From a virus, in IMG/VR virus record IMGVR_UViG_3300020129_000129, positions 1 to 22,436 of that record: DNA of 22,436 nucleotides, one strand, 5' to 3'. The notes under the pieces are model-generated. The model was given only the letters and a program-made list of their open reading frames with translations, was not told the DNA's origin and ran no database searches. Made by a program: the position numbers and the translations under genes. This document shows positions 1,582 to 18,859 of this stretch, piece by piece. Each line of letters opens with the position of its first letter. Position 1 is the stretch's first letter.

Positions 1582-2166
1582 ATGCAGGCGCTGAAACGCG
1601 AAGAGCTGGCGAAATTTTTGGAAGCCTGCAGAGAGCAGAGCGAGCAGACCTGGTTGATGGCTCTACTCGCAGTGAATCACGGATTGCGCGTCGGAGAGCT
1701 CTGCGGACGCTGGGCCGTGCGCAAGGTTAAAGGCAATAAGGAGAAGTACTTCCACCGCGGGATCCTGGCGCGCGAAGTGCGGAACGGACTGATCACGATT
1801 CGCCGTCTGAAAGGCTCGGAGATCACCACGCAGCCGCTGGTCGCACACGAAAATCCTCTGTTCGATGAGCGCCGCGCAGTCGAAAAACTGGTTTTGAAAA
1901 CACGCCCAAATGACCCGCTTTTCAAGCTCAATCGAACAACCGCCTGGCGCCATCTGCAGGCCGCAGGACGCGCCGCCGGCGTAAAACTTTCCGCCGCGCA
2001 TATTCGCGGAATGAAACACACGCTCGGCACGCTAGCTGCTGAAAATACAGCACCTAAGGAGCTGCAGATCCAGATGGGGCACAAGGATGGAAAGAACACC
2101 CTGCGCTACTACGACACGACTCCTGAGCAGGCGGCAGAGGCCGTCAAACGCGCGCTGGCGCTTTGA
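1582..2166 (+). CDS. int: Tyrosine recombinase (phage integrase), catalytic domain only
   Basis: This is a site-specific recombinase of the phage integrase family, about 194 aa. It carries the first catalytic Arg in NHGLRVGEL, a beta-hairpin Lys in RRLKGSEITTQPL, the GH motif in QIQMGHKD and the nucleophile Tyr in NTLRYYDTT. Box II is odd: where the family has HxLRH, this protein has RGMKH, so the usual His and second Arg are Arg and Lys. It lacks the N-terminal core-binding and arm-binding domains found in most 300-400 aa integrases and is nearer in length to FimB-type recombinases. An in-frame TTG at 1567 is possible, but ATG 1582 is preferred; neither has a clear ribosome-binding site, and a TGA at 1564 bars any longer N-terminus. 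The family call is firm, activity is uncertain. Confidence 0.8.
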   Translation: MQALKREELAKFLEACREQSEQTWLMALLAVNHGLRVGELCGRWAVRKVKGNKEKYFHRGILAREVRNGLITIRRLKGSEITTQPLVAHENPLFDERRAVEKLVLKTRPNDPLFKLNRTTAWRHLQAAGRAAGVKLSAAHIRGMKHTLGTLAAENTAPKELQIQMGHKDGKNTLRYYDTTPEQAAEAVKRALAL

Positions 2167-2186
2167 ATTTTTGAATTAATTTTTGA

Positions 2187-2597
2187 ATGCCACGCGGTGG
2201 ACGACGAGAAGGCGCAGGACGGAAGAAGCAGACCAGGGCGACGGATGCAGGTGTAGCCGAGAAAGTGCTGGCGAAAGCGCATGCCGAGCAGACCTGGTTG
2301 TCACTGATCCAGCTGGAGAAGAACCGGCTCGGCATCGCGGCAGACGGGAAGCTGAAAGAAACCAAGAAATCAGAGCCTAGCGATGAGGACGAGGAGGGAG
2401 TCATCGACGGTCCCGACTATCAGGGCAGATTTTCCATCATCCCGCTGGTGAATCTGTTCAAGTACCTCGAGGATCGCGCTTATGGCCCCTGCAAACAGAA
2501 GCTAGAACTCAATGGGAAGCTCGAATTTGATCTCGCCGCTCGACGCGACCGTGTTCGCGAACTTCTCTCCCGGTTGGCTGGAGGGACTAAGCGCTGA
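2187..2597 (+). CDS. terS: Terminase small subunit-like protein
   Basis: The protein (136 aa) opens MPRGGRREGAGRKKQTRATD. The GGxRxGAGRKK start is common in phage terminase small subunits and related DNA-binding proteins. Small terminases recognise phage DNA and hand it to the large subunit for packaging. The middle is acidic (PSDEDEEG) and the end is basic and helical (RRDRVRELLSRLAGGTKR). The gene sits just upstream of the large terminase and overlaps it by 86 bases, the classical position. The upstream gap is a 20-base AT-rich stretch with repeated TTTGAA and no obvious ribosome-binding site. The identification rests on the N-terminal motif and gene order. Confidence 0.65.
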   Translation: MPRGGRREGAGRKKQTRATDAGVAEKVLAKAHAEQTWLSLIQLEKNRLGIAADGKLKETKKSEPSDEDEEGVIDGPDYQGRFSIIPLVNLFKYLEDRAYGPCKQKLELNGKLEFDLAARRDRVRELLSRLAGGTKR

Positions 2598-3261
2598 AGA
2601 TCTCGAGGCGCTCGAACGCGAACTCGAGGAAGCTGTCGGCTTTGCCGCACAGAAGGAACAAAGTGAGCAGCTGGATCTCGATGCGAAATGCGCCGCCGAT
2701 GCTCTGTTCTGGCTGCAGAACCTCACCGCTACCGAGAATCCCAAGCACCAGGAGCAAGGCCTTCCCTACAAAGCCCCATTCCCGCGCAAAAGTTATTTCG
2801 CTCCGCTGTTTGAAGAATTCCGGCGAGCTCGTCGGCTGTTCATCCCGAAGACGCGCGAGATGCTCACCAGCTGGTGCGTGATGGGCGACTCGACGCACAG
2901 AGCACAGTGGGAGCGCTGGTTCGTCGTGGTGCAGACCGACGCAGAGAAGAAAGCCGAAGAGTTGATCGGCTACGCGCGCGCCCTCTACGACAATCAGCCG
3001 GACTGGATGAAGAAGCTGCATCCGCTGAGCGGACAGCCCTCGCAGACCAAGATTGAATGGCAAGCCGGCGGGCGATTGCTCGCGATCCCTGCCGGCGTCA
3101 ACAAGATTCGTTTGTATCACCCGACTCGCTACGTGATGGACGAAGCCGCATTCCTGCCGGAAGCAGAAGCCTGCTACAACGCCGCGGCGCCGGTGGCGCA
3201 GCAGATCATCGCGATCTCTTCGGCCGGACCTGGATGGTTTGGCGATCAATGCGCCAAGTGA
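2512..3261 (+). CDS. terL: Terminase large subunit, N-terminal ATPase part (split gene)
   Basis: This 249-aa protein is the motor ATPase half of a large terminase, which powers DNA packaging into the procapsid. The adenine/Walker A region is the degenerate form seen in many phage terminases (FIPKTREMLTSW, residues 110-121). Walker B is RYVMDEAAF (206-214), with the catalytic Glu following the Asp, and the coupling motif is ISSAGPGWF (235-243). The frame then stops at TGA 3259-3261, right where the nuclease domain should begin; that domain is encoded at 6479-7420. The start at ATG 2512 overlaps the small subunit gene by 86 bases; no better start is seen downstream. A membrane peptide gene begins 13 bases before this stop. 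The ATPase call is confident; whether it works as a separate chain is inference. Confidence 0.85.
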   Translation: MGSSNLISPLDATVFANFSPGWLEGLSAEDLEALERELEEAVGFAAQKEQSEQLDLDAKCAADALFWLQNLTATENPKHQEQGLPYKAPFPRKSYFAPLFEEFRRARRLFIPKTREMLTSWCVMGDSTHRAQWERWFVVVQTDAEKKAEELIGYARALYDNQPDWMKKLHPLSGQPSQTKIEWQAGGRLLAIPAGVNKIRLYHPTRYVMDEAAFLPEAEACYNAAAPVAQQIIAISSAGPGWFGDQCAK

Positions 3262-3392
3262 AGGTCACCGCCGCAGTGCTGTTTGTGATGGCGCTCATCG
3301 GGTTTCAGTGCTGGTGGGTCAGATACAAATACCAGGACTGCAAAAGAGTCGGGCACTCAACTCTTTACTGCGTCCTCGATCTTGGAAAATGA
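3249..3392 (+). CDS. 47-aa single-span membrane peptide
   Basis: ATG 3249 lies inside the last codons of the terminase ATPase part, and the frame closes at TGA 3390-3392. The peptide begins MRQVKVTAAVLFVMALIGFQ and has one N-terminal hydrophobic segment followed by a polar, Cys-containing tail (YKYQDCKRVGHSTLYC). This could be an uncleaved signal anchor. The 13-base overlap upstream and the ATGA overlap with the methyltransferase downstream place it firmly in the operon. It is the first gene of the block that separates the two terminase halves. Function unknown. Confidence 0.55.
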   Translation: MRQVKVTAAVLFVMALIGFQCWWVRYKYQDCKRVGHSTLYCVLDLGK

Positions 3393-3895
3393 ACACACTT
3401 CCAGTCACCTTCGACGGCCGGCGCGCAGTTCCCTCCCCTGAAGTCACGCGCGTGATGCTCGAGCTACTCGAGCTGACCAAGCTCGACAAGGTGCTCGAGA
3501 TCGGAACCGGATCCGGCTATCAGACCAGCGAGCTGGCGAAATCCGGAGCTGAACTGCATTCGATCGAGCTCGAGCCGTGGGTGGATCCAACCAAGATCAC
3601 CGGCGAATGCGTGTTCTTACATGCCGGCAACGGCGTGACCGGGCTCTACAGCGAAGCGCCGTTCACCGCGATCGTTGCAACCTGTGGCGTCGAGCAGATT
3701 CCCTCCGCCTGGCGCGCGCAACTCACCGAAGGCGGACGCCTGGTCGCACCAGTCGGAGATAGCACCGTGCAGCGCCTGACCAAGTTCGTGAAGCATGATG
3801 GCTCGCTGGTCCCGGTGCGGATCGGCGCCTACGTGCGCTTCCAGATGCTCAGGGAGCCCGAAATTCGCAAGCCGGTGAAGCCGGTCTATGCCTAA
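3389..3895 (+). CDS. PCMT-like SAM-dependent methyltransferase
   Basis: The 168-aa product has the SAM-binding motif I (VLEIGTGSGYQT, residues 35-46). It also has the C-terminal strand pattern of protein-L-isoaspartate O-methyltransferases (IVATCGVEQIPSAW, then QLTEGGRLVAPVG). PCMT enzymes methylate damaged aspartyl residues. This protein is shorter than the usual ~210 aa and its N-terminal active-site loop (LPVTFDGRRAVPSPEV) only loosely matches the family, so the substrate may differ. It starts at ATG 3389 through an ATGA overlap with the membrane peptide and overlaps the next gene by 8 bases. The Rossmann methyltransferase fold is confident; the PCMT reaction is inference from family resemblance. 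Confidence 0.75.
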   Translation: MNTLPVTFDGRRAVPSPEVTRVMLELLELTKLDKVLEIGTGSGYQTSELAKSGAELHSIELEPWVDPTKITGECVFLHAGNGVTGLYSEAPFTAIVATCGVEQIPSAWRAQLTEGGRLVAPVGDSTVQRLTKFVKHDGSLVPVRIGAYVRFQMLREPEIRKPVKPVYA

Positions 3896-4109
3896 AGTCT
3901 CCGCCGCTTCGGTTGATTACACCGAGCTGCCTGGCGCCCAGAAAGACGCGGACTGCTCGCACGTGGAAGTCAAAGGCGGAGTCTCGAATCAGCTGGGCTG
4001 CTGCAACGACTTCGAGTACGTACCAGGCAAGCCGAAAGAGTTCCGCTGCGGGACGTGTGAGTACGTCGTGATCCAGAACGTAAAGCCCGACAATTTCTAT
4101 GGCGCGTGA
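3888..4109 (+). CDS. Small Cys-rich protein with C-terminal FYG tail
   Basis: The product is 73 aa, starting at ATG 3888 inside the end of the methyltransferase gene. It has five cysteines (23, 38, 39, 54, 57) ending in a CGTC pair, which suggests a small zinc-ribbon or zinc-knuckle fold. The last residues are KPDNFYGA. The FYG tail recurs at the ends of the two disordered proteins encoded at 4864-5268 and 5273-5803, so it may be a shared docking or sorting signal. The gene overlaps the next by 11 bases. I do not recognise a named family; the zinc binding is inferred from the cysteine spacing. Confidence 0.6.
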   Translation: MPKVSAASVDYTELPGAQKDADCSHVEVKGGVSNQLGCCNDFEYVPGKPKEFRCGTCEYVVIQNVKPDNFYGA

Positions 4110-4326
4110 TCTAGTGCTCGTGCTCTGGCTTTTTGTTGATGTGCTCTGGAGCGCATTTCTCTTCGGCGGGTGCGCGTGGCTGGTGTTTTGGCATGACCAT
4201 TCGCCTTGGTGGTTTCTTCTGGCGATCTTTCTCAGCCCCGCTCTAGGTGGCGGCAAGCTGTACCGCGCCCTCGCAAAGCGTTGCGGTCTGGGAGAAGGCG
4301 AACTAGGAAAAGATGATGGCGCGTAA
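4099..4326 (+). CDS. Two-span small membrane protein
   Basis: A 75-aa protein starting at ATG 4099. Two hydrophobic segments are visible: LVLVLWLFVDVLWSAFLFGG (about residues 5-24) and WWFLLAIFLSPALGGG (about 37-52), separated by a short His/Asp loop (FWHDHSP). The C-terminus is polar (YRALAKRCGLGEGELGKDD) and likely cytoplasmic. The size and two-span layout resemble holins, but the same shape occurs in many unrelated phage membrane proteins and no lysis enzyme is encoded nearby. It overlaps both neighbours (11 and 14 bases). Function unknown. Confidence 0.6.
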   Translation: MARDLVLVLWLFVDVLWSAFLFGGCAWLVFWHDHSPWWFLLAIFLSPALGGGKLYRALAKRCGLGEGELGKDDGA

Positions 4327-4852
4327 AGGCTTCATCGTCGCTCATGGCGAGACTTTGATGGACCGGGAAGGACGAGTGCACGGCCGGCTCGATCCGCCGC
4401 TCACGCTCAAAGGCAAGCTGACCGCGAAACGCGCCGCCCGTCAGCTGAAAGGCAAGCCGATCGAGCGCATCTACTCTTCGCCGCGGCAGCGCGCACGTCA
4501 GACCGCCAGCATCCTTGCGGACACGCTCCAGGTGCCGATCGAAGTTCGCGGCGAACTCGTTCCGTGGGATCTCGGACGCATGTCCGGCGCGAAAGCTTCA
4601 ACCATTACGCCGATCGTCGATTTCTTCTCTTCGCGCCCGGAGCGCGTGGTGCCGAGCGGCGAATCGAAGGCTGACGTTCTCAAGCGCTATCGCAAGTTCG
4701 TCTCCGAGCTGAAGCGCGGCAAAGGCATGTTTGTGATCGCCGGCCATTCTCAGCACACGCTCGGCTTCGACTATGCCGCCAAGGGCGGCGATCTCTCGAA
4801 AGTCAAAATGATCGGCGGGCAGGCGGGAGAAGTGAAACCCGTCACCGTCTGA
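4313..4852 (+). CDS. Histidine phosphatase superfamily protein, RHG motif changed to AHG
   Basis: This 179-aa protein matches the phosphoglycerate mutase/histidine phosphatase superfamily. The catalytic region is FIVAHGETLMDREGRVHGRL, followed by the typical PLTLKGKLTAKRAARQL and IYSSPRQRARQTASIL segments, a GES element (residues about 117-119) and a C-terminal GHSQ with the second active-site His. The first Arg of the family's RHG motif, a phosphate ligand, is Ala here; the nucleophile His is kept. Members dephosphorylate small molecules or proteins. The loss of the Arg suggests altered or weak activity. It overlaps the previous gene by 14 bases and ends 11 bases before the next. Family call firm, substrate unknown. 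Confidence 0.8.
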   Translation: MMARKGFIVAHGETLMDREGRVHGRLDPPLTLKGKLTAKRAARQLKGKPIERIYSSPRQRARQTASILADTLQVPIEVRGELVPWDLGRMSGAKASTITPIVDFFSSRPERVVPSGESKADVLKRYRKFVSELKRGKGMFVIAGHSQHTLGFDYAAKGGDLSKVKMIGGQAGEVKPVTV

Positions 4853-4863
4853 AAGGCAACACC

Positions 4864-5268
4864 ATGAAAAAAGTAAAAGGAATGCCGATCACCGGCGCCA
4901 AGCCGCAGTACTCAAAGAAAGCTCCGCTGGTGCCCGACGCGAAGGACACGTCCGCGCAAGCGCAGATCATGATCGGCGAAGCCCCGTCGCCCTTTAAGAA
5001 CAAGATGCAGACGGGAGAGATGCCGGCGCCTTCAGGAGCATCAGGCGGTGTCTCGACGATGGAGCCGAAGATCCAGTCCGGCCTGAAGCGATCGACGCCT
5101 GGCGCGCGCGCATTGCCCTCCGGGCAGCCCGTCGGACAGCGCAAGCCGATCAACCAGTCCGGCCAGATGGACGGCCGCATGGGAACACGCTTCGCGCGCA
5201 AGGTCGGCGGCGCGGATCTGAAGACCAAGTACACACCAAAGCGCAACGCCAATTTCTACGGGGAGTAA
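4864..5268 (+). CDS. Disordered basic protein with C-terminal FYGE tail
   Basis: The 134-aa product is rich in Lys, Gly, Pro, Gln, Ser and Ala with few hydrophobic residues, so it is probably disordered. It opens MKKVKGMPITGAKPQYSKKA and ends KYTPKRNANFYGE. A ribosome-binding site (AAAGG) precedes ATG 4864 by about eight bases. The C-terminal NFYG tail is shared with the Cys-rich protein upstream, and a close variant ends the next protein. Such low-complexity basic proteins in phage operons are sometimes internal virion or DNA-binding components, but nothing here proves that. Its sister gene follows after four bases. Confidence 0.65.
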   Translation: MKKVKGMPITGAKPQYSKKAPLVPDAKDTSAQAQIMIGEAPSPFKNKMQTGEMPAPSGASGGVSTMEPKIQSGLKRSTPGARALPSGQPVGQRKPINQSGQMDGRMGTRFARKVGGADLKTKYTPKRNANFYGE

Positions 5269-5272
5269 GACC

Positions 5273-5803
5273 ATGAAACGCACTCAGCAGGGCGTGCCTG
5301 CAGCCGAAACCGGCCGCGTCGCGGGCGACTATTCCGGATCGCGGAACTACAACAAGATGCCGACCAAAAGCGGCGGCAACTCGACCACCAACGAAGCTCG
5401 CCGCGGAGCTGGCCAGATCGCACCGCGTCCGCAGAGTTCCAAACAGCCACTGCTGAGCGCGAGCGCCGCTACGGCGTCCGCGCAGGCAGGCATCGCGCGC
5501 GTCAAAGGCGCGGGTTCTTCCCCAACGGGAACCGGCGGATCCGCCGGCAGCTTCACGCCCGTGCAGAACAACGCCAACGCGAACCAGCACGGCACCGCGA
5601 TGCCCTATGGCGGCAAGGGCACGCCACCGGCACAGCGCGGCGGTCCCGCAGGCCTGCGCGCCGGCGGACGCAATCAGACCTGGCCGAACGGAGCGATGTA
5701 CACCGACGGCACCAAGGCAGACGGCGCCCGCGGCCGCGGCGGCGAGTTGCAGAAGCCGAAGCGGAAAGGCAAAGGTGCAGCTTTTTACGGCGAGTACTCC
5801 TAA
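5273..5803 (+). CDS. Low-complexity Gly/Ala/Gln-rich protein with FYGE tail
   Basis: The 176-aa protein starts at ATG 5273 behind a strong ribosome-binding site (GGGGAG). It is dominated by Gly, Ala, Ser, Thr, Gln and Asn with scattered Arg and Lys, has almost no predicted core, and ends KRKGKGAAFYGEYS. The FYGE motif near the C-terminus matches the tails of the two other proteins in this block, although two residues follow it here. Composition and tail make it a relative or functional partner of the protein at 4864-5268. No enzymatic motif is visible. Likely roles are structural or nucleic-acid binding; this is inference. Confidence 0.65.
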   Translation: MKRTQQGVPAAETGRVAGDYSGSRNYNKMPTKSGGNSTTNEARRGAGQIAPRPQSSKQPLLSASAATASAQAGIARVKGAGSSPTGTGGSAGSFTPVQNNANANQHGTAMPYGGKGTPPAQRGGPAGLRAGGRNQTWPNGAMYTDGTKADGARGRGGELQKPKRKGKGAAFYGEYS

Positions 5804-5832
5804 AGCGGCCGCTCGATTGCTCAAACCAGAGC

Positions 5833-6240
5833 ATGGGCTGGCTATCGAAGCGAACAACAAAAGCAAGTTGTCATCCTGAAAAACCGCATGTGGCGAAGGG
5901 CCTCTGTAATGCCTGTTATCGACACATGCGCTACCACGCCAAGTGGAAATCCTCCAACACCGAGCGATCGAGACTCTGGCGGAACAAGAACCGCGACAAA
6001 TGGCGTTTATGGAAGAAAGAGGCAGAACGGCGCAAACGTGAACGCAAGGCCACACGCCCTCGCGCAAGTTCTTGCGAGATTTGCGCACGAGTTTGCTTCA
6101 CATTTTTCGATCACGATCACAGCACAGGACAGTTTCGCGGTTGGATTTGCGAGCACTGCAATAAAGCTTTAGGTTTCGTGAAAGACGATCCCGCACTTCT
6201 CCGAAAACTGGCCGAGTACCTAGAAAAAGCGGACAACTGA
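5833..6240 (+). CDS. Endonuclease VII-type HNH nuclease
   Basis: The 135-aa product has the recombination endonuclease VII pattern. There is an N-terminal Cys cluster (C13, C25, C28 in GLCNACYR), then a basic helical linker and a C-terminal zinc/nuclease module. That module has C81-x2-C84, the catalytic DHDH (residues 93-96), GQFRGWIC with C106-x2-C109, and an Asn (CEHCNKALG). Family members cut branched DNA or act as free-standing homing endonucleases. It lies in the block that splits the terminase gene, a setting in which homing-type nucleases are often found. ATG 5833 follows a 29-base gap after the previous gene; TGA 6238-6240 runs into the next gene's ribosome-binding site. Confidence 0.85.
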   Translation: MGWLSKRTTKASCHPEKPHVAKGLCNACYRHMRYHAKWKSSNTERSRLWRNKNRDKWRLWKKEAERRKRERKATRPRASSCEICARVCFTFFDHDHSTGQFRGWICEHCNKALGFVKDDPALLRKLAEYLEKADN

Positions 6241-6253
6241 GAGGAGAACAGCC

Positions 6254-6475
6254 ATCACAACCACAAACGTGTACAAGGTGCATTACCACTTCGAGGGATC
6301 GGGCGGCAAGAAGATCTCGCCCGATTACGTCGATTACGTGGCGGCGGCTGCGAACGACTACAACTCGATCAAGACCGTGCTTTCGAACAACGGCAAGCTG
6401 CTCGGCGGGGGAACACTGGTGATCTCCGCGGTGCAGAACTTCCCCTCGGGTGGATCGACCGGAGTCCTCAGCTAA
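6254..6475 (+). CDS. Small conserved-looking protein, probable ATC start
   Basis: A small open frame ending at TAA 6473-6475. From the GTG at 6269 it is 68 aa (MYKVHYHFEGSGGKKISP). However, a strong ribosome-binding site (GAGGAG, 6241-6246) is spaced seven bases from an in-frame ATC at 6254, giving a natural N-terminus of initiator plus TTTNVYKVHYHF (73 aa). The GTG is 22 bases from that site, too far for normal use. The protein looks like a small alpha/beta domain with a Gly-rich end (FPSGGSTGVLS). It lies in the same frame as the TerL nuclease part, separated from it only by the TAA and one ACC codon. Family not recognised. Confidence 0.6.
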   Translation: MTTTNVYKVHYHFEGSGGKKISPDYVDYVAAAANDYNSIKTVLSNNGKLLGGGTLVISAVQNFPSGGSTGVLS

Positions 6476-6478
6476 ACC

Positions 6479-7420
6479 TTGCAGGTCGAATTCCCGCATC
6501 CCGGAATCGAAGTCTGGTCGAACCGCCACGGCATCCGCATCTTCCGCCTGCACTACTCGGCTGATCCAGAGAAGACCAGCGAGTGGGCCGCAGCGCAGAA
6601 GCACGCGATGACCAACCCTGCCGACTACGAGCAGGAATTCGAGATCAACTTCTCGGCCAAGCTGGGAACGCTGATCTACCAGATGCGGGATGAAGCGACG
6701 CTCGAGAACTCATTCCCGATCCCGCACGACTGGACTCGCTATTTTGCTCTCGACCCGCATCCTGTGGTTCCCCACGCAGCACTTTGGGTGGCGGTTGACC
6801 GCTGGGGAGATGCATGGGCTTATCGAGAACTATGGCCCTCTCGCATCGCAGGACAGCCCGGAAATCCTCCCGAGGATGACGTGCGATTTTCCATCAAGGA
6901 CTTCGTAGAAGCCGTGCAGTGGCTCGAGTCGGCCGAGAACCCCGAGAACCAGATGCAGGCTGAAGACGTTTACAAGCGCGTCATCGACTACGCCGCCCGC
7001 GCCATGGGGCAAGGGTTCTTCGACGAGAAGCCGGAATACAACTTCCAGCTGCGCTTTGAGGAACTCGGTGGCTGGAAGTTTGACGACTCGATCAAGGATC
7101 ACCAGGCCGGCTACGAAGCCGTGAATGAATGGCTGAAGCCGCGCGACGTCGAGCAAGTGGATGGAATGTTTCGGCCGAAATCACGGCTGCATATCTTCCA
7201 GGACAAGTGTCCAGAGCTCGTGCTCGAGCTGCACACCAACCGCTTCCAGCAGATGACGCCGACGATGGCCGAGCGCGCCGATCCCACTGGCAAGCCAATG
7301 GCAAAACGAAATCACGAGACCGACTGCCTGCGCTATCTGGCGATGGCTGGCCTCGAGTACATCCCCAATCGCCGCCTGACTTCGAACTGGAAGCCCCTGG
7401 CAAACGGAATCAACTACTAA
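6479..7420 (+). CDS. terL: Terminase large subunit, C-terminal nuclease part (split gene)
   Basis: This 313-aa segment is the RNase H-fold nuclease half of the large terminase, which cuts concatemeric DNA at packaging. The linker to the ATPase part is visible (HGIRIFRLHYSADPEKTSEW). The acidic residues expected at the metal site are present: D92 in YFALDPHP, D170 in RVIDYAAR, and D282 in NHETDCLRYL. The only early start is TTG 6479, four bases after the previous stop, with no well-spaced ribosome-binding site, so translation may depend on re-initiation. The next in-frame ATG, near 6608, would remove the linker. It ends at TAA directly before the portal ATG. The ATPase half lies 3.2 kb upstream. 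Confidence 0.85.
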   Translation: MQVEFPHPGIEVWSNRHGIRIFRLHYSADPEKTSEWAAAQKHAMTNPADYEQEFEINFSAKLGTLIYQMRDEATLENSFPIPHDWTRYFALDPHPVVPHAALWVAVDRWGDAWAYRELWPSRIAGQPGNPPEDDVRFSIKDFVEAVQWLESAENPENQMQAEDVYKRVIDYAARAMGQGFFDEKPEYNFQLRFEELGGWKFDDSIKDHQAGYEAVNEWLKPRDVEQVDGMFRPKSRLHIFQDKCPELVLELHTNRFQQMTPTMAERADPTGKPMAKRNHETDCLRYLAMAGLEYIPNRRLTSNWKPLANGINY

Positions 7421-9667
7421 ATGCCCTCTGAAATCCCAGGCACGTCGCAAGCTGCGCCGAACGTGTCGACGAACTCGACGCCCGAGACGGTGGCCGACAT
7501 TCTCGACCGCCGCAACGAGTCGCGCCGCTACATGCAGATCAACTACTGGGATCAGTGGGAGGACGTCTATCGCGCTTCGAAGTGCCGCACCAAGCCGATC
7601 ATGACGAAGGACAAGAGCGGCAACGAAGTCGAGGACAAGACGCGCACTAACGTCGCGATGCCGGAGCTGAGCCTGATCATCCGCCGCAAAACGGCGCGGC
7701 TCACCGCGAATCCGCCGCAGATCAACTACACCTGCGCCGAAGATGGACCGCGGCAGCTCGCCGATCGCCTGACCGCATGGAGCTATCAGCAATTCGATCG
7801 CTCCGGTGAAGCCATGGAGCACCGCAAGCTCGTGCAGTCCGGGCAAACCTTCGGCTACGGCGTGCAGAAGCACTACTGGGACACGGTCGAGATCACGCGC
7901 AAGTTCTTTCGCCAGTTCGTGAAGGGCGGACAGCCCTACGCCATGAACCGCACCGGCTTTATGCAGATGCAGGGCGCGCCCGACGATGAGATCTCGGCCG
8001 CAGTGAAAGAAGGCGGCGAGGAACTGAACGACACCGAACTCTCGAACGCGATCGCCAAGTACGGACCGACCGCACAGGTGCCCACGCGCGTGCGGCAGTT
8101 CGAAGGCCCGGTCTCGAAAAACATCTTTATTGGCGATTTCTTCATGGAGCCAGGCGCCGCGAACCTGAACGTCTCCGGCTGGGGAATCGAGAACTACTTT
8201 GAGTCCGACGTGTGGCTGAAGAAGATGGCGGCGAAAAAGTATATCGACCCGGAAACGGGCGACGAGCGGCCGATCTTCGACACCAAGGCGATCAAGGAAC
8301 TCGCCGACATGCCGTCCTGGCAGCCGATCTACCAGCAGCAGCCCTTCGATCTGCGATCGCGTTTGCGCACCAATGCACTCGGCCAGACGCTTCCCTTGTG
8401 GCCGACGAAGCTTCTGCGCGGCAAGCGCTACGACGTGCTCGAGTGCCACACCAAGGACAAAGAGGGAAAGTTCTGGATCGAGTGGGTGGGCAACGAGAAA
8501 GTTTTTCTGGGGAAAATGCCTTATCCGTGGGATCTCTACGGGAAGTACTGCTACACGGAACTCGTGCCGATGTTTGACCTGCTCGCGGCCTACGGAGATT
8601 CGACGCCGCAGCTCTTGAGACACCTGTGGCTTTTACACAACGCGATTGTCGGATCGCGCCGCGACCTGGTCGCGAACATCTTACGCCCGCTCATGAAAAT
8701 GCGCGCCGGCGCCGACGTTCCCGACGAGCAGATCGATCGCGCTTTGTTCCGCATCATCCAGATGCGCAACCCCGATGACCTGCAGCCGCTGATCGAAGAC
8801 TTGGGCTCAATCGCGCCGGCAATTCAGGGAGCAACCGAAGAAGAAGCGCAGAACCTGCGCATGATGGCTCTCGCCGAGCCGAACCTCACCAACGTCGAGA
8901 CCGGCACAGAATCGAATCCACAAGCGGGCAAGACCGCGACCACCGCGGTGCTCGCTGCCAAGTCGGCCGACGCGCTGACCCAGTTCGAGATGGACTCGCT
9001 CAACTGGTATCTCAAGGAGTCGGGCGAGAAGAAGCTCGCCATGCTGCAGCAGACCGAGCCCGAGCCCGACGAGAAATCCGAGAGCGGCTACAAGCCCTAC
9101 GATCTGGCCTCGAGCTACACCTCGAAGGTGGAAGGCCTGACCCAACGCTACGGCAAGACCAGCGTCGCCCAGCTCGACTTCATGGAGCTCCAGCAGGAGA
9201 TCCAGGTCGAACCGGCCGCGATGTCGATGCTTTCAGTCGATGACGACATCCGTCGCACCGGCGCATTGCAGCTGGTCGAAATTGCCGGGCAGATGCCCTC
9301 GGTCGTCGATCCCCACTACGCGGCGAAGAACTTCGCTTCGACGATCAAAGGCGTGGACGCAGACAAAGCTGTGCCGCCGCCGAAGCCGCCGCAGAATCCG
9401 CCGCCGAAGATCTCTGTGACGGTCGCGATCAAGTGGCCAGAACTGCCGCCGGAAGTGCAGGCGCAGATTCTCTCCGCGGCCGGCGGGCAGGTTTCCGCCG
9501 CAACCCAGAACGAACTGCAGCTCGAATCGACGCTCAAAGGCATCGAGAAACTTTCTTCCGCGGCCAATCACGCCGACAACTTGATGAGCACCCGCGGCGC
9601 TGACGATGTGCACGATCTGCCTTCGACCAAGGGAGTGAACAATCCAAGCCCAACTCCGGCTCGCTGA
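7421..9667 (+). CDS. Portal protein
   Basis: The 748-aa protein is the portal, a dodecameric ring at one capsid vertex through which DNA is packaged and ejected. It follows the terminase directly (TAA then ATG). The N-terminal half has the usual helical clip/stem pattern with DRRNESRRYMQINYWDQW and a segment on refusing or binding partners (PELSLIIRRKTARLTANPP). A central segment (LLRHLWLLHNAIVGSRRDL) fits the long stem helix. The region around EPNLTNVETGTESNPQAGKT resembles large portals of the SU10/P22-like kind. The C-terminus is Ala/Gln-rich and coiled. The length is at the high end for portals. The assignment rests on size, order and composition, and is strong in context. Confidence 0.8.
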   Translation: MPSEIPGTSQAAPNVSTNSTPETVADILDRRNESRRYMQINYWDQWEDVYRASKCRTKPIMTKDKSGNEVEDKTRTNVAMPELSLIIRRKTARLTANPPQINYTCAEDGPRQLADRLTAWSYQQFDRSGEAMEHRKLVQSGQTFGYGVQKHYWDTVEITRKFFRQFVKGGQPYAMNRTGFMQMQGAPDDEISAAVKEGGEELNDTELSNAIAKYGPTAQVPTRVRQFEGPVSKNIFIGDFFMEPGAANLNVSGWGIENYFESDVWLKKMAAKKYIDPETGDERPIFDTKAIKELADMPSWQPIYQQQPFDLRSRLRTNALGQTLPLWPTKLLRGKRYDVLECHTKDKEGKFWIEWVGNEKVFLGKMPYPWDLYGKYCYTELVPMFDLLAAYGDSTPQLLRHLWLLHNAIVGSRRDLVANILRPLMKMRAGADVPDEQIDRALFRIIQMRNPDDLQPLIEDLGSIAPAIQGATEEEAQNLRMMALAEPNLTNVETGTESNPQAGKTATTAVLAAKSADALTQFEMDSLNWYLKESGEKKLAMLQQTEPEPDEKSESGYKPYDLASSYTSKVEGLTQRYGKTSVAQLDFMELQQEIQVEPAAMSMLSVDDDIRRTGALQLVEIAGQMPSVVDPHYAAKNFASTIKGVDADKAVPPPKPPQNPPPKISVTVAIKWPELPPEVQAQILSAAGGQVSAATQNELQLESTLKGIEKLSSAANHADNLMSTRGADDVHDLPSTKGVNNPSPTPAR

Positions 9668-13574: not shown

Positions 13575-14120
13575 ATGCCTACCCGGTGGAGCATTTTGAT
13601 TTTAACCATGCCGCACCGCCGGCACCTGCTCGAGAAATTGCTCGCGAATCTCCAGCAGCAAGCACTTCCCGAAGTTGAAATCCTGGTGAAGGAAAATCCC
13701 TACGATCTCTCCCGGCTCGGCGCCAACCGGCAAGCCTTGCTCGAAAAAGCGCGAGGCGAATACGTGAACTTCATTGACGACGACGACGAAGTGCCCGCGG
13801 ACTATCTGGCAACCATCTTCCCGCTGCTGGATGGAGTCGATTACATCGGCTTCCAAATCGAGATGACGTACGACGGCCGGCCCTTCCAGTTGGCCGATCA
13901 CTCGCTCAAACACAAAACGCCGGAAATGGGGAAGAAGAACGTCTCGCACCTGAACCCGATCCGGCGTGAGTTAGCGATGCAAGGAATCTTCGAAGGGGGC
14001 TTCGCCGAAGATCGCCGCTGGGCGGAGCGCGTCGCCCCATCGGTCAAGACCGAGCACTACATCCCGCGCGTGATGTACGTCTACCACTACTCCAGTACCA
14101 AGAATGTGGCTCATGGCTAA
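13575..14120 (+). CDS. Small GT-A-type glycosyltransferase-like protein
   Basis: The 181-aa protein has the opening of family 2-like nucleotide-sugar transferases (WSILILTMPHRRHLLEKLLA), a helix-strand repeat, a conserved-looking GANRQALLEKARGEYV segment, and the acidic metal/sugar-nucleotide site VNFIDDDDEVPADY (DDDD at residues 68-71). The C-terminal half is short, so the acceptor domain is minimal; a full family member is about 250 aa. It probably transfers a sugar from a nucleotide donor. It starts the accessory cassette; the same fold recurs twice in the gene at 14502. It overlaps the next gene by 8 bases. Donor and acceptor are unknown. Confidence 0.75.
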   Translation: MPTRWSILILTMPHRRHLLEKLLANLQQQALPEVEILVKENPYDLSRLGANRQALLEKARGEYVNFIDDDDEVPADYLATIFPLLDGVDYIGFQIEMTYDGRPFQLADHSLKHKTPEMGKKNVSHLNPIRRELAMQGIFEGGFAEDRRWAERVAPSVKTEHYIPRVMYVYHYSSTKNVAHG

Positions 14121-14505
14121 CTGCTCCAACTGCGGCTCCGAATCCACTCGCGTGCGCTCGCGCTGGACCGACAAGGGAGTACAGCTCCCCGACGAATGCC
14201 CTGCCTGTGCGCCGCAGAGCTTCGAGAAATTCACCGCGCCGTCGGACAAAAAGATCTGGATGGGCTACGAAGCCCACCCCAACGAATACGTCAGGGCTGC
14301 CGACGGCGGCTTCGATCGCAAACCCGAGTACCGCGCCGAGCAGGAACAGAAGCTCTGCCAGGCGACCGAAGACGAGAAGGCGAGAGAGGAACAGGTCGCG
14401 GCCCGCAAGCGGGCGAATCGCAGGCTGACCCCTATGACCGCGGCTGAAATGACGGCCGCGCTGGCGAAGGCCGCTGAAATCGCAGAAGCGCTCAGGAGAT
14501 CATGA
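14113..14505 (+). CDS. Zinc-ribbon protein with helical C-terminus
   Basis: The product (130 aa from ATG 14113, or 133 from ATG 14104) has two CxxC pairs at its start: CSNCGSESTRV, and CPAC about 25 residues later, forming a likely zinc ribbon. The middle is acidic and aromatic (KKIWMGYEAHPNEYV) and the C-terminus is a long charged helix ending in an Ala-rich stretch (TAAEMTAALAKAAEIAEAL). I prefer the second ATG because it starts just before the first cysteine pair. It sits between two glycosyltransferase genes, with an overlap upstream and an ATGA junction downstream. Function unknown. Confidence 0.6.
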   Translation: MANCSNCGSESTRVRSRWTDKGVQLPDECPACAPQSFEKFTAPSDKKIWMGYEAHPNEYVRAADGGFDRKPEYRAEQEQKLCQATEDEKAREEQVAARKRANRRLTPMTAAEMTAALAKAAEIAEALRRS

Positions 14506-16130
14506 AACCTCAAGACGAATGGCAGAAAAAAGTGCGGCGGATCCTCATGGACCCGGACGGCCGCGCTGCGCTCAAACAGTACGGCATCGACGTCGAGATC
14601 ACCGACGAGGAAAAAGAGAAAGAGAAGCCCATCGTGGCCATTCTCTGCCCCACCTATCGCGCGCCGGAGCCCGTGATGCAGGACTCGCTGCGCGCCATGG
14701 TGCTCTACTCTCGCGAGCGCGGCATCACGGTCTACTCCGGCGCACCCATCCAGACTTCCGTAGTTCACTGGTCGCGGAATTTTATTGTGGCCGACCAGAT
14801 CAAGAGCGGAAAGCCCTGGACGCACGTACTTATGGTCGACGACGACATGAAGATCCCGGAAGACGCGCTGGTGAAATTGCTGGCGCATCAAAAGGACATC
14901 ATCGGAGGGATCTGTACCCGAAGAACCGATCCGCCGCGGCCGACGATCAGCCACTACAACGACGAGAAGCAAGTCTTCGAGCCGATCTGGGAATGGCCGG
15001 ACAATGAGACCTTTGAAGTCGGCGGCATCGGTGCGGCCTTCCTGCTGGTTTCGAGAAATGCCCTGGAGCAGATTGCGCAAGCCTACTTCGATTGTCTCTG
15101 GGAAAAAGATTTCTATAAGGTGTCGGACGAATGGGTGGAGCGCGTGCGGGCGCAGCGCTTGCAGTATTTCGACAAGGAAAAGATGGCGTTCTGGTTCCGC
15201 TTCCTGCCTTCTGAATCGCTGGCGATCGAGCAGGGCGAGGACATGAGCTTCTGTCTCGTTGCCCGCAAGTACTGCGGGCTCTCCATCTGGGTTGATACCT
15301 CCGTGCAGCCAGGACATCTCGGCACCTACGATTTCGGCGTGAAGGACTTCATTCCCTACCGGCACGAAGTGATCGAGCGCGCCAAGCGGGACGGAACCTA
15401 CAAACCCAAGGCGGTCCCGCCCATGGATATTTCGATCCTCTGCCCCACGCGCGGCCGGCCGGAAAACGTCAAGCGCTTGCTTGATTCGATCGCCGCGACT
15501 TCGAGCGTTTTACCGGAAGTAATTTTCTACGTGGACGATGACGACACAACGTTTCCTGGCGCTCTCGGGTATCCAAATGCTTCTGTCGTGCGCGGCCCAC
15601 GCATCACGCTCTCTGATTGCTGGAACAAACTGGCGGCGATCGCCACCGGGGAAATCCTGATGAACGCCGGCGACGACCTGATCTTTAAAACGAAGGGCTG
15701 GGACGACGAGGTGAAGCAGTCCTTCGCGAATTTCCCCGATCGCCTGGTCTTTGTGCACGGAGACGACGGGCACTTCGGGAGGCGCTTCGGCACGCATGGC
15801 TTTGTGCATCGCAAGTGGGTCGAGGCAGTCGGCTACTTCATTCCGCCCTACTTCTCCTCTGACTTTGGCGACACCTGGCTGAACGAAGTCGCGAACCGCC
15901 TCGATCGCCGCGTGGCCTTGCCGTTCCTGGCTGAACATATGCATCCGATCTGGAACAAGGCCGAGTGGGACCAGACGCACAAGGAACGACTGGCGCGGCA
16001 CGAGCGCGACCAGGTGGAAGAGTTGTACAAGAAACTCGCGCCCGAACGGGATCGCGACGTCGAAAAGCTCTCACGAATCATCCATGGCGAAAGTCTGCCT
16101 ACTCGACAGCCCGAGCTGGTTGTTATTTAA
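14502..16130 (+). CDS. Tandem two-domain GT-A glycosyltransferase
   Basis: The 542-aa protein carries two glycosyltransferase-like domains. The first (about 43-280) begins IVAILCPTYRAPEP and has the acidic motif VLMVDDDMKIP (DDD at 113-115) and a GGIGAAFLLVSRNAL element. The second (about 309-500) begins DISILCPTRGRPENVKRLLD and has FYVDDDDTTF (345-348) and EILMNAGDDLIF (384-395). Each is a complete GT-A start with its own metal-binding Asp cluster. Fused transferases often add sugars in sequence or form a disaccharide. The start has a good AGGAG site. The end overlaps the radical SAM gene by 47 bases. The fold is confident; sugar and target (virion protein, DNA base or host glycan) are not known. 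Confidence 0.8.
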   Translation: MKPQDEWQKKVRRILMDPDGRAALKQYGIDVEITDEEKEKEKPIVAILCPTYRAPEPVMQDSLRAMVLYSRERGITVYSGAPIQTSVVHWSRNFIVADQIKSGKPWTHVLMVDDDMKIPEDALVKLLAHQKDIIGGICTRRTDPPRPTISHYNDEKQVFEPIWEWPDNETFEVGGIGAAFLLVSRNALEQIAQAYFDCLWEKDFYKVSDEWVERVRAQRLQYFDKEKMAFWFRFLPSESLAIEQGEDMSFCLVARKYCGLSIWVDTSVQPGHLGTYDFGVKDFIPYRHEVIERAKRDGTYKPKAVPPMDISILCPTRGRPENVKRLLDSIAATSSVLPEVIFYVDDDDTTFPGALGYPNASVVRGPRITLSDCWNKLAAIATGEILMNAGDDLIFKTKGWDDEVKQSFANFPDRLVFVHGDDGHFGRRFGTHGFVHRKWVEAVGYFIPPYFSSDFGDTWLNEVANRLDRRVALPFLAEHMHPIWNKAEWDQTHKERLARHERDQVEELYKKLAPERDRDVEKLSRIIHGESLPTRQPELVVI

Positions 16131-17454
16131 CCCGCTGAGCTTCCTGCACCTCGGGATCCTGTACCTGGCGGGCTCGCTGCGCAAGGCGGGCCACGAGGTG
16201 AAGGTGCTCGACGCGCACCAGATCACCAGCTGGGACAAGGCCAAGAAGGAGCTGATCATTCACCATGAGCAGCTCGAGCCCTGCGACGTGCTCGGGATCT
16301 CGGCGACGACGGCCAACGTGCATTGGGGCAAGCAGCTCGCGAAGGCCTGGCCGGCGAAAGTCAAAGTGCTCGGCGGATCCCATGCCACCTACATCGCCAA
16401 CGGCCCGCACGAGCAGTACAAGCGGCCGGAGTACTTCGACGGTTTCAATTTCCTGATGCTCGGCGAGTCGGAGGATTCCTTTGTGCAGTTCTGCGACGCA
16501 TGGGACAAAGACGAGAACGTCTATCACGTGCCCGGCCTCGCCTGGTTTAACTCTTTCCGGATGCTGCAGAAGAATCCGCCGGCCGCGCTCCCAGACGTGA
16601 ATTCCCTTCCCGGTCCCGCATTCGATCTGTGGCCGACCGAGTTCTATAGCGGGCGCTTCACGACGTCGGATTACGACGGCAAAGGCGGACAAGGCATGAC
16701 CGCGCAGCTCTTCACCGCGCGCGGATGCCCTTACGGTTGCCGCTTCTGCGCCGATGCGAGAACCAAGATTCGCGAGGAAAGCTATGAGCAGATCGAGATG
16801 CAGGCCGCGGCGTTGGCCTTTCAGGGTGTCACCTGCGTGCGAATCTACGACGACGTGCTCACTATACGTGCCGATCGATGCAAGAGAATCGCTGACATCA
16901 TGGCTGACTACGGTCTGTGGTTCCGCGGGAACACGCGAGTCAATCTTACGGACCGGAGTCTTTTCGATTACCTGGCGAAGCGGGGCTGCGTTGAGCTCGG
17001 CTTCGGCGTCGAGCACGGATCCGCGCGAATGCTGAAGGCGATGGACAAGGGCACGACGCCCGAGAAGAACACGATCGGGATCAAGATGTGCCAGGACGCC
17101 GGCATGGTCGCGAAAGCCTATCTGCTGGCCGGCTTTCCCGGCGAGACGCTCGAATCGCTCGCCGAGATGGAAGCCTGGATGCGCGACGCGCGTCCCGACG
17201 CCTGCAGCTGGAATCTCTTCCAGCCTTATCCCGGATCCGACGTGTGGATCCACCCCGAGAAGTACGGCGTGAAGCTTCCGCTGAACGCTTTCGACAAGTT
17301 CTGGCAGACCGGCGATGAAGTGACCGAGGAATCGGTGTATCTCGATCTGCCCAGTATTTCCAAATCAGATTTAGTCCGGCGCTTCCGCGAGATCTCCCAG
17401 GTGATCGATTCCGAGATCCAGCATCGCGACCGGGCGCAGGTGATGATGCAATGA
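16084..17454 (+). CDS. B12-binding-type radical SAM enzyme
   Basis: This 456-aa enzyme has an N-terminal Rossmann domain like the cobalamin-binding region of the BchE/methyltransferase class (VKVLDAHQITSW, and VKVLGGSHATYIA near residues 90-103). A radical SAM core follows with the [4Fe-4S] motif RGCPYGCRFCAD (C215, C219, C222) and typical later strands (CVRIYDDVLTI, VELGFGVEHGSARML, KAYLLAGFPGETLE). Such enzymes use S-adenosylmethionine to start radical chemistry, often methylation or ring rearrangement of unactivated carbons. The usual DxHxxG cobalamin motif is not intact, as in other members of this class. It overlaps the glycosyltransferase and meets the next gene at an ATGA. Family confident; substrate unknown, plausibly a sugar. 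Confidence 0.88.
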   Translation: MAKVCLLDSPSWLLFNPLSFLHLGILYLAGSLRKAGHEVKVLDAHQITSWDKAKKELIIHHEQLEPCDVLGISATTANVHWGKQLAKAWPAKVKVLGGSHATYIANGPHEQYKRPEYFDGFNFLMLGESEDSFVQFCDAWDKDENVYHVPGLAWFNSFRMLQKNPPAALPDVNSLPGPAFDLWPTEFYSGRFTTSDYDGKGGQGMTAQLFTARGCPYGCRFCADARTKIREESYEQIEMQAAALAFQGVTCVRIYDDVLTIRADRCKRIADIMADYGLWFRGNTRVNLTDRSLFDYLAKRGCVELGFGVEHGSARMLKAMDKGTTPEKNTIGIKMCQDAGMVAKAYLLAGFPGETLESLAEMEAWMRDARPDACSWNLFQPYPGSDVWIHPEKYGVKLPLNAFDKFWQTGDEVTEESVYLDLPSISKSDLVRRFREISQVIDSEIQHRDRAQVMMQ

Positions 17455-17549
17455 CTCCAGCTTTTGCGTGTGCTCTCACTGTCATGTTCTTTGTGGCCTG
17501 GATTATGGCATTTGTCCTCGGCTACATGATCGGACGGAGGCATAAATGA
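17451..17549 (+). CDS. 32-aa single-span membrane peptide
   Basis: The ATG at 17451 overlaps the radical SAM stop (ATGA) and the frame closes at TGA 17547-17549, itself overlapping the ATG of the dehydrogenase. The peptide is MTPAFACALTVMFFVAWIMA followed by FVLGYMIGRRHK: one hydrophobic span with a basic C-terminal end, which predicts a cytoplasmic C-terminus. The ribosome-binding site of the dehydrogenase (GGAGG) lies inside its last codons. The double ATGA junction argues that it is translated. Function unknown. Confidence 0.55.
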   Translation: MTPAFACALTVMFFVAWIMAFVLGYMIGRRHK

Positions 17550-18859
17550 AGATCGGATTCGTAGGTTGCGGGAAACTCGGCCTGATGGTCGCGCTGGCGA
17601 TCGAATCGAAGGGCCACGAAGTCAAAGGCTACGACGTCAACAAGCAGATCGCGAACTACTTCGCCGGCGCGCCCTATCCCTACCAGGAAGAAGGCGCGGA
17701 CGCTCTCTTCCACTCGAGCAAGATGGAGATGGTCGGGCTCGAGGAGCTGTGCCGCTGGGCCGACATTCTCTTTCTCGCGCCGCAGACTCCGCACGAGGCG
17801 AAGTACGAAGGCGATCGCCCGCTGCCGGAATCGCGCGCCGACTTCGACTACCAATATCTCAAGCAGTGCGTCTGCGACGTGCGCGCCTACCTGGTGCGTC
17901 CGACGACGTGCGTGCTGATCTCGACCGTTTTGCCGGGCACGCTCGAGCGCGAAGTCCTGCCGCTGCTCGACGATCGCTTCCGCCTGGTCTATGAGCCGCT
18001 GTTCATCGCGATGGGCACGGTCGTGCGCGATTTCCTGAATCCGGAGTTCGTCCTGGTTGGGCTGCACGACAAGCAGGCCGCCGGCGAGCTGCAGCGCTTC
18101 TACGCGACTATTCACAACCGGCCGCTGTTCATCACCGACGTGAAAACCGCCGAAGGCATCAAGGTCTTCTACAACACCTTCATCACGGCCAAGACCGTGC
18201 TCGCAAATCTCTACGGCGAGATGGCCGCGCGGCTCGGCATGAACGTCGATGACATCTTCCAGGCGCTCACGCTGGCGACGGATCGCCTGCTTTCCCCGAA
18301 GTACCTGAAGGCCGGCATGGGCGACGGCGGCGGCTGCCATCCCCGCGACAACATCGCGCTGAGCTACATCGCGCAGAAATGCGAGCTGAGCTTTGATTTC
18401 TTCTCCGCGCTGATGACGGCGCGCGAAAAGCACGTCGAGTGGCTGGCTTCCCTGATCAAGCAGTACCGCGGCGATCTCCCGGTCTTCATTCTCGGCCGAG
18501 CCTTCAAGCCTGAGACCAACATTGAGACCGGATCGCCGGCCGTGCTGCTCTCACGCATTCTGCATCGCGACGGGATCCCGCACGGCTCGCAGGAGTACTT
18601 CGTTCCGCTGCAGCAAGGCCTTTACTTCATCGGCACCAGGCACGAGCGCTGGGCGAAGACGAAGTTTCCGGCCGGATCCGTCGTGATCGATCCCTTCCGC
18701 TATATCCCGGACCAGAAGGAAGTGACCGTGCTGCGCCTCGGCGACGGATCGATCCTGCCGAAAGCTGCCGTGGTTCGTTCTCTTGTTGCCGTTCGCACGC
18801 CTAGCCCAACAAAACTCTCAAAGCGGCACTGGAAGAAAGTAATGGAAGAAGCTGGATGA
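17546..18859 (+). CDS. UDP-glucose/GDP-mannose dehydrogenase family enzyme
   Basis: The 437-aa enzyme has the NAD-binding GxGxxG (GFVGCGKLG, residues 4-12), the STVLPGT loop, the central Lys and Asn of the active site (EGIKVFYNTF, K206 and N210) and the catalytic Cys in DGGGCHPRDN (C264), and a C-terminal UDP-binding segment (GRAFKPETNIETGSPAVLLS). The family oxidises UDP-glucose, UDP-ManNAc or GDP-mannose to the uronic acid in two NAD-dependent steps. The C-terminal motif normally reads FKPNTDDxRESP; here the Asp and Arg positions differ, so the nucleotide sugar may differ too. It has a strong GGAGG site and overlaps the next gene by an ATGA. It would supply an acidic sugar to the neighbouring transferases. 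Confidence 0.85.
   Translation: MKIGFVGCGKLGLMVALAIESKGHEVKGYDVNKQIANYFAGAPYPYQEEGADALFHSSKMEMVGLEELCRWADILFLAPQTPHEAKYEGDRPLPESRADFDYQYLKQCVCDVRAYLVRPTTCVLISTVLPGTLEREVLPLLDDRFRLVYEPLFIAMGTVVRDFLNPEFVLVGLHDKQAAGELQRFYATIHNRPLFITDVKTAEGIKVFYNTFITAKTVLANLYGEMAARLGMNVDDIFQALTLATDRLLSPKYLKAGMGDGGGCHPRDNIALSYIAQKCELSFDFFSALMTAREKHVEWLASLIKQYRGDLPVFILGRAFKPETNIETGSPAVLLSRILHRDGIPHGSQEYFVPLQQGLYFIGTRHERWAKTKFPAGSVVIDPFRYIPDQKEVTVLRLGDGSILPKAAVVRSLVAVRTPSPTKLSKRHWKKVMEEAG

Follow-up and report, generated by a model that had tools for sequence, protein, structure and literature searches.

The locus and its recurrence

The stretch of DNA analysed here, called the window, is the IMG/VR virus record IMGVR_UViG_3300020129_000129 with 22,436 bases, in which the coding parts of the large terminase (TerL) are found in two separate genes on the plus strand. 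The upstream gene codes for the ATPase half (chain A) and the downstream gene for the nuclease half (chain N):

2512..3261, + strand: TerL chain A, 249 aa, ATPase core with a deviant Walker A, a Walker B and a coupling motif; ends just past the coupling-motif helix
6479..7420, + strand: TerL chain N, 313 aa, with an EFPHPG...W.N extension, the predicted last ATPase core strand and lid, and an RNase H-like nuclease

A sequence-only reading of the window had proposed that TerL is physically divided into two separately encoded chains, and had advised a search for relatives with the same split. IMG/VR was searched with each half separately and duplicates were removed. Such relatives were readily found, and the physical division was borne out in 41 of 41 distinct loci with two halves (40 IMG/VR loci and the window), with the break at one homologous position throughout. 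The usual form of TerL, with both parts in one polypeptide, was not observed; in the window the two open reading frames (ORFs) are 3.2 kb apart. The gap between the halves measured 174-5540 nt across the 41 loci and 757-5540 nt, with a median of 2518, in the 39 loci that matched both profiles strongly. The identity of the relatives' halves to those of the window ranged from 81% down to about 25%.

The copy number was analysed in 14 related records of 30-69 kb, each of which contained exactly one chain A and one chain N. PF03237, PF17289 and PF03354 (Terminase_6N, Terminase_6C and TerL_ATPase) had no match in these 14 records, and the positive controls matched. A duplicate of the ATPase half was not found within the window either. 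The proposal that neither half is duplicated was thus confirmed, for the ATPase half in the window and for both halves in the 14 records, and a second intact TerL, which the same reading had named as an argument against a split, was not found in them.

In the maximum-likelihood tree of the ATPase part, all 31 split rows were on one side of a branch with a support of 99/98, opposite 14 contiguous TerLs. Judged from this tree, the split clade is consistent with one origin within the present sampling. Locus L038 formed a long branch and L072 was attached via a short stem. The nuclease chain of L072, a distant split TerL, carries an intein (886-2724, PF14890, E=1.1e-13), which its relative L115 apparently lacks. 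Strong purifying selection acts on both halves, with a ratio of nonsynonymous to synonymous substitution (dN/dS) of 0.03-0.08 where it was computable, the synonymous sites being near saturation.

Among the named isolates of a phage collection, neither the A half nor the portal had a relative, and the best identity of the N half to a named isolate was 23.5%. The only related locus in the species-genome collection was L087, on a contig binned with an Acidobacteriota metagenome-assembled genome. Acidobacteriota are therefore a possible host, as a lead only.

Chain A contains the ATPase core

The ATPase half had no Pfam match and matched the PHROG TerL with an E-value of 0.035 only. When a profile of 31 sequences of the ATPase half was used, T4 gp17 was matched with E=1.1e-10. 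The AlphaFold2 model of chain A had a predicted local distance difference test score (pLDDT) of 92.5 and was matched to T4 gp17 with Foldseek (3cpe, E=1.5e-10, template modelling score of 0.68 for the query over 202 columns). By the gp17 profile and the 3cpe match, chain A has the P-loop ATPase core of the TerL superfamily.

The Walker A, Walker B and coupling motifs, which had been placed inside 2512-3261 from the letters, were located at K113-T-R-E-M-x-T-S (codon 2848), D210-E211 (3139/3142) and S236-S-A-G (3217), respectively. The residues K113, R115, D210, E211 and S236 are invariant across the 31 chain A homologues. The Walker A motif is deviant, since compared with gp17 a threonine is at the usual lysine position and the conserved lysine is found six residues upstream.

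Chain N contains the nuclease

The nuclease half also had no Pfam match; it matched the PHROG 2 TerL with E=9.8e-6. The AlphaFold2 model of chain N, with a pLDDT of 78.1, was matched with Foldseek to the nuclease of the P22 large terminase (4dkw, E=2.2e-6) and over about 270 columns to the D6E large terminase. Three nuclease aspartates had been predicted within 6479-7420, and the alignment supports all of them: D92 (6752) and D282 (7322) were invariant in 32 rows and D170 (6986) was conserved in 31 of 32. Chain N accordingly has an RNase H-like nuclease with three acidic residues. Upstream of the last ATPase strand it has a conserved N-terminal extension, EFPHPG...W.NPHG, which the aligned contiguous T4-type TerLs do not show. 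This extension could aid docking.

By alignment, the break lies inside the ATPase domain

The junction was aligned with the contiguous T4-type TerLs of immuto, Mel-JY01, RM378 and LR756508. The end of chain A, GWFGDQCAK, aligned with NWFHKTWEKA, which is the helix past the coupling motif; in chain N, the segment GIRIFRLHYSADPEKTSEW aligned with GFVPVKLKWDVHPERKQDW of the contiguous proteins. In TerL structures, the GFVPVKLKWDVHPERKQDW region forms the last core strand of the ATPase, with the lid following it. We infer from this alignment that the break is inside the ATPase domain, past the coupling-motif helix, and not at the domain boundary, so that the last core strand and the lid would sit on chain N at about residues 18-60. 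The naming of an ATPase half and a nuclease half therefore holds for the presence of two chains, but not for a domain-exact division. Since chain N would carry part of the ATPase domain, a stable association of the two chains is the simplest working model.

The chain ends are conserved. The 31 chain A homologues end near the same place, almost all of them a few residues past G-W-F-x-x-x-C. The start of chain N likewise falls at one shared position of the alignment, with an ATG, GTG or TTG within about ten codons in 30 of the 34 nuclease halves. In several relatives the start of chain N is inside the last codons of the preceding gene, an arrangement which, by its layout, would be as in translational coupling. 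In the window the TTG is three bases past the stop of the preceding gene and is the sole in-frame start after that stop. The weak TTG noticed just after another stop is thus the start available here, and most relatives have an ATG or GTG at this place.

The two chains have different relatives

The window chain A is the sister of the L005 chain A (support 99/98), whereas the window chain N is in a clade with L002 and others (100/99). When the window was forced to join the L002 clade on the chain A data, the arrangement was rejected by the approximately unbiased (AU) test with p=8.8e-5. A second discordance was observed between L021/L023/L025 and L010/L011/L013/L014, where the N chains are 84-91% identical and the A chains only 60-63%. 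The chain A arrangement of L021/L023/L025 imposed on the chain N data was rejected with p=1.6e-4, and the reverse test gave p=0.034; the AU p-values are somewhat optimistic because some groups were named after viewing one tree. The discordance of the window alone could be a contig chimera, but the case shared by three contigs is not easily explained in this way. The trees indicate that the two chains were exchanged independently between lineages, and the chains therefore behave as separable modules.

The genes between and around the halves

The sequence-only reading had described the gap as a block of nine co-directional genes and not as one homing gene. The ORF list agrees, as 3248-6475 contains nine co-directional ORFs, each of 44 aa or more. 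The features around the two chains are:

1567-2166: integrase of the tyrosine-recombinase type (PF00589, E=3.2e-13), immediately preceding the terminase genes
2187..2597, + strand: candidate small terminase (TerS), 136 aa, overlapping the chain A gene and adjoining TerL upstream
3248..3392, + strand: small ORF, 47 aa, possible membrane peptide as judged from its sequence, overlapping the chain A end
3389..3895, + strand: Protein-L-isoaspartate O-methyltransferase (PCMT) family gene (PF01135, E=3e-26)
3888..4109, + strand: 73 aa protein with the C-terminus NFYGA (F[FY]G tag)
4099..4326, + strand: small hydrophobic protein, 75 aa, with its start codon inside the FYG codons of the preceding gene
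4313..4852, + strand: histidine phosphatase superfamily protein (PF00300, E=3.5e-29)
4864..5268, + strand: basic low-complexity protein with the C-terminus NANFYGE, shared by gap homologues in relatives
5273..5803, + strand: basic low-complexity protein with the C-terminus AAFYGEYS and homologues in the relatives' gaps
5833..6240, + strand: Endonuclease VII-type HNH nuclease (PF02945, E=8.9e-17; PHROG 2633), possible free-standing homing endonuclease
6269..6475, + strand: protein of 68 aa, immediately preceding chain N, with homologues in several relatives
7421..9667, + strand: probable portal protein, adjoining chain N on its downstream side; a conserved neighbour in relatives

The TerS candidate had no match in Pfam and PHROG searches; it is proposed on its position and on its N-terminus, PRGGRREGAGRKK, which resembles that of many TerS proteins. 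The small ORF at 3248..3392 had no homologue among the relatives compared. The portal name is only inferred because there was no PHROG match.

The gap content differs among the relatives. The most constant gap gene is PCMT (PF01135), carried between the halves by 11 of the 12 distinct contigs in the first comparison, followed by the histidine phosphatase, present in many relatives' gaps, and by small basic proteins. The Endonuclease VII-like gene is in the gap of the window and, at another position beside chain A, in those of L004 and L012; it was absent from most gaps. It would fit a mobile passenger or else a remnant of the gene-breaking event. A direct repeat pairing the two junctions was looked for and none was found, and an excisable element between the halves was rejected on this ground.

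A number of gap proteins of unrelated sequence, mostly small and basic, end with F[FY]G and zero to three further residues. In the window these are the proteins of 3888-4109, 4864-5268 and 5273-5803, and others are in the gaps of L002, L003, L004, L018, L067 and further loci. In seven records the tail was present in 17 of 75 crude gap ORFs and in 7 of 836 ORFs outside (Fisher p=1.3e-14, a value inflated by overlapping ORFs and by homologous genes shared among the records, though the contrast is still large). Of the seven cases outside the gap, six are accounted for by a small disordered protein that occurs once in each of six of the seven records. The tail is a possible docking or capsid-targeting tag.

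Further downstream in the window, a radical SAM protein with a B12-binding domain (16084-17454) is encoded within the structural gene region, and no counterpart of it was found among the relatives compared. At 13575-18859, the virion genes include two glycosyltransferase family 2 proteins and one UDP-glucose/GDP-mannose dehydrogenase, which suggests a sugar modification of the particles or of the host surface.

A probable two-chain terminase and the alternatives

Taken together, the best overall explanation is that this phage lineage very likely encodes a genuinely two-chain large terminase. We regard it as highly probable that the separate chains act together, and the complementation of the ATPase core by the strand and lid of chain N is the probable mode of joining. 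An ancestral terL would have undergone a single break in the loop that joins the coupling-motif helix to the last ATPase-core strand, after which each piece would have had a start and a stop of its own, either newly gained or retained. Chain N, with the strand, the lid, the RNase H nuclease and the N-terminal extension, would dock on chain A, in what is probably an obligate association, and complete the fold in trans, and the motor seated on the portal would be a TerL ring of heteromeric composition. Once opened, the terL site may have become a variable region for the methyltransferase, the phosphatase, the small basic proteins with the tag and, in some cases, an endonuclease of the homing type.

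Several observations weigh against this explanation. L030, L031, L023 and L027, four of the 34 nuclease halves, have no ATG, GTG or TTG at the expected place; their starts at 7539, 7983, 8001 and 4241, respectively, are ACG, CTG or unclear, with ACG as the aligned codon in L031, and therefore a rarer initiation codon is used or the sequences contain errors. The model of chain N (pLDDT 78) is only moderately confident. The records come from metagenomes, with none certified as complete, and another TerL belonging to an unrelated family may therefore still exist.

How the two-chain TerL arose is a separate question. Insertion of a free-standing homing endonuclease could have made the split, as for Aeh1 nrdA/mobE, with the Endonuclease VII-like gene as its remnant. 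This would explain the origin and is compatible with a two-chain terminase. Both parts are, as in genes in pieces, under selection (dN/dS 0.03-0.08 where measurable) and unspliced (no intron found), there are precedents in T4-like phages (PMC2988022), and the endonuclease gene occurs in three gaps. Since most gaps are without it, PCMT is the most constant gap gene and the junctions are not paired by a direct repeat, we consider this origin possible but rather doubtful. Still more tentative is a reading of the two-chain terminase as an obligate two-subunit motor with exchangeable subunits, in which chain N completes the ATPase fold and the terL site has become a place for F[FY]G-tagged proteins, the tag possibly serving for docking to the motor or the capsid.

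The chains might also act separately, chain A as a packaging motor alone and chain N as a stand-alone nuclease for the genome ends. The reassortment shows a tolerance of different partners and chain A alone is predicted with high confidence (pLDDT 92.5). However, chain A is without the last core strand and the lid of the aligned contiguous T4-type TerLs, and chain N keeps both, which makes separate action improbable.

The sequence-only reading had raised an unrecognised splicing mechanism, by which an intron or trans-splicing would rejoin the halves into one chain. Group I introns are known in some phage terL genes (PMC11878797), and the junction is in a loop where a join would restore a contiguous TerL; as a correction to the earlier proposal, the halves are in different frames in the window. 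The Rfam scan of 2000-8000 at E<=1 gave no intron match and only one chance match, and in five relatives at the gathering thresholds only tRNAs and no intron were found, so neither a group I nor a group II intron was detected in terL. Parts of a split intein at the chain ends were also not found, as the halves in the window had no Hint/intein Pfam match and the chains end in TerL sequence. The stop right after chain A and the start of chain N are conserved, the gap varies in length (174-5540 nt) and content, and the chains reassort between lineages. Splicing is therefore unsupported and very unlikely.

An assembly chimera or recent decay, with an intact TerL elsewhere, would give different nearest relatives for the two halves as seen in the window, but this possibility, also named by the sequence-only reading, is largely refuted and hardly credible, as the split is common to 40 other loci from many metagenomes, a separate A/N discordance is shared by L021, L023 and L025, the catalytic residues and the low dN/dS are kept, and no second TerL was found in the 14 related records.

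Comparison with known systems

The two chains share with the single-chain TerL of the T4 gp17 type the fold of the ATPase core, the order of the motifs, the RNase H-like nuclease and the gene order beside the portal. They differ in being two chains from two genes, in the break inside the ATPase domain, in the deviant Walker A and in the extension of chain N. The coupling of ATP hydrolysis to DNA movement in TerL depends on the lid and on the linkage between ATPase and nuclease, and has been studied in one continuous chain. In a natural motor that is cut inside the ATPase domain the coupling question is directly testable, with each chain expressed, mixed and mutated separately. Because neither half matches a Pfam TerL model, marker searches with terL and completeness checks will misread such phages.

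The herpesvirus terminase gene has two exons with other genes inside the intron, and its mRNA is spliced to encode one chain. There, too, the coding parts of a TerL homologue flank unrelated genes, but they are spliced, for which no evidence was found here. Annotators of actinophages use separate labels for an ATPase domain and a nuclease domain of the terminase; a paper search for this usage found nothing. A TerL-like protein of 235 aa in Pectobacterium phage CBB, with a short ATPase match, is probably not a case of the same arrangement, as a longer TerL gene adjoins it.

Among the open-licence papers, where an absence is weak evidence, the only split terminase found was that of the Parabacteroides phage phiPDS1, in which TerL is in two coding sequences (CDS) and the authors suspected a problem of the codon table or the assembly (PMC10773633). 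The likeness is in the two CDS for the two TerL parts of one phage genome. It is a likeness of gene arrangement, and phiPDS1 is a single doubted case from a different host group (PMC10773633). The same open-licence literature yielded no report of a split TerL as a fixed trait of a divergent clade, with the cut inside the ATPase domain, a variable fill and reassorting halves.

In some phages terL is interrupted by self-splicing group I introns. These have recognisable ribozymes and their RNA is spliced (PMC11878797), whereas none was found here. Closer are the enzymes in pieces of T4-like phages, for which reassembly from two polypeptides is established with Aeh1 NrdA and the DNA polymerase of phage 25 (PMC2988022). 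There, as proposed here, an essential enzyme is split and its two polypeptides assemble. A homing endonuclease is at or near the split in those phages; in the present family the Endonuclease VII-like gene occurs in the window, L004 and L012 and is absent from most gaps. Those cases are in few genomes with a small insert, whereas the split described here is in a divergent clade, with several kb of variable cargo and reassorting halves (PMC2988022). In conclusion, phage enzymes in pieces and one doubted isolate, phiPDS1, were known already, and the clade-wide two-chain TerL with variable cargo adds a new form to this known kind.

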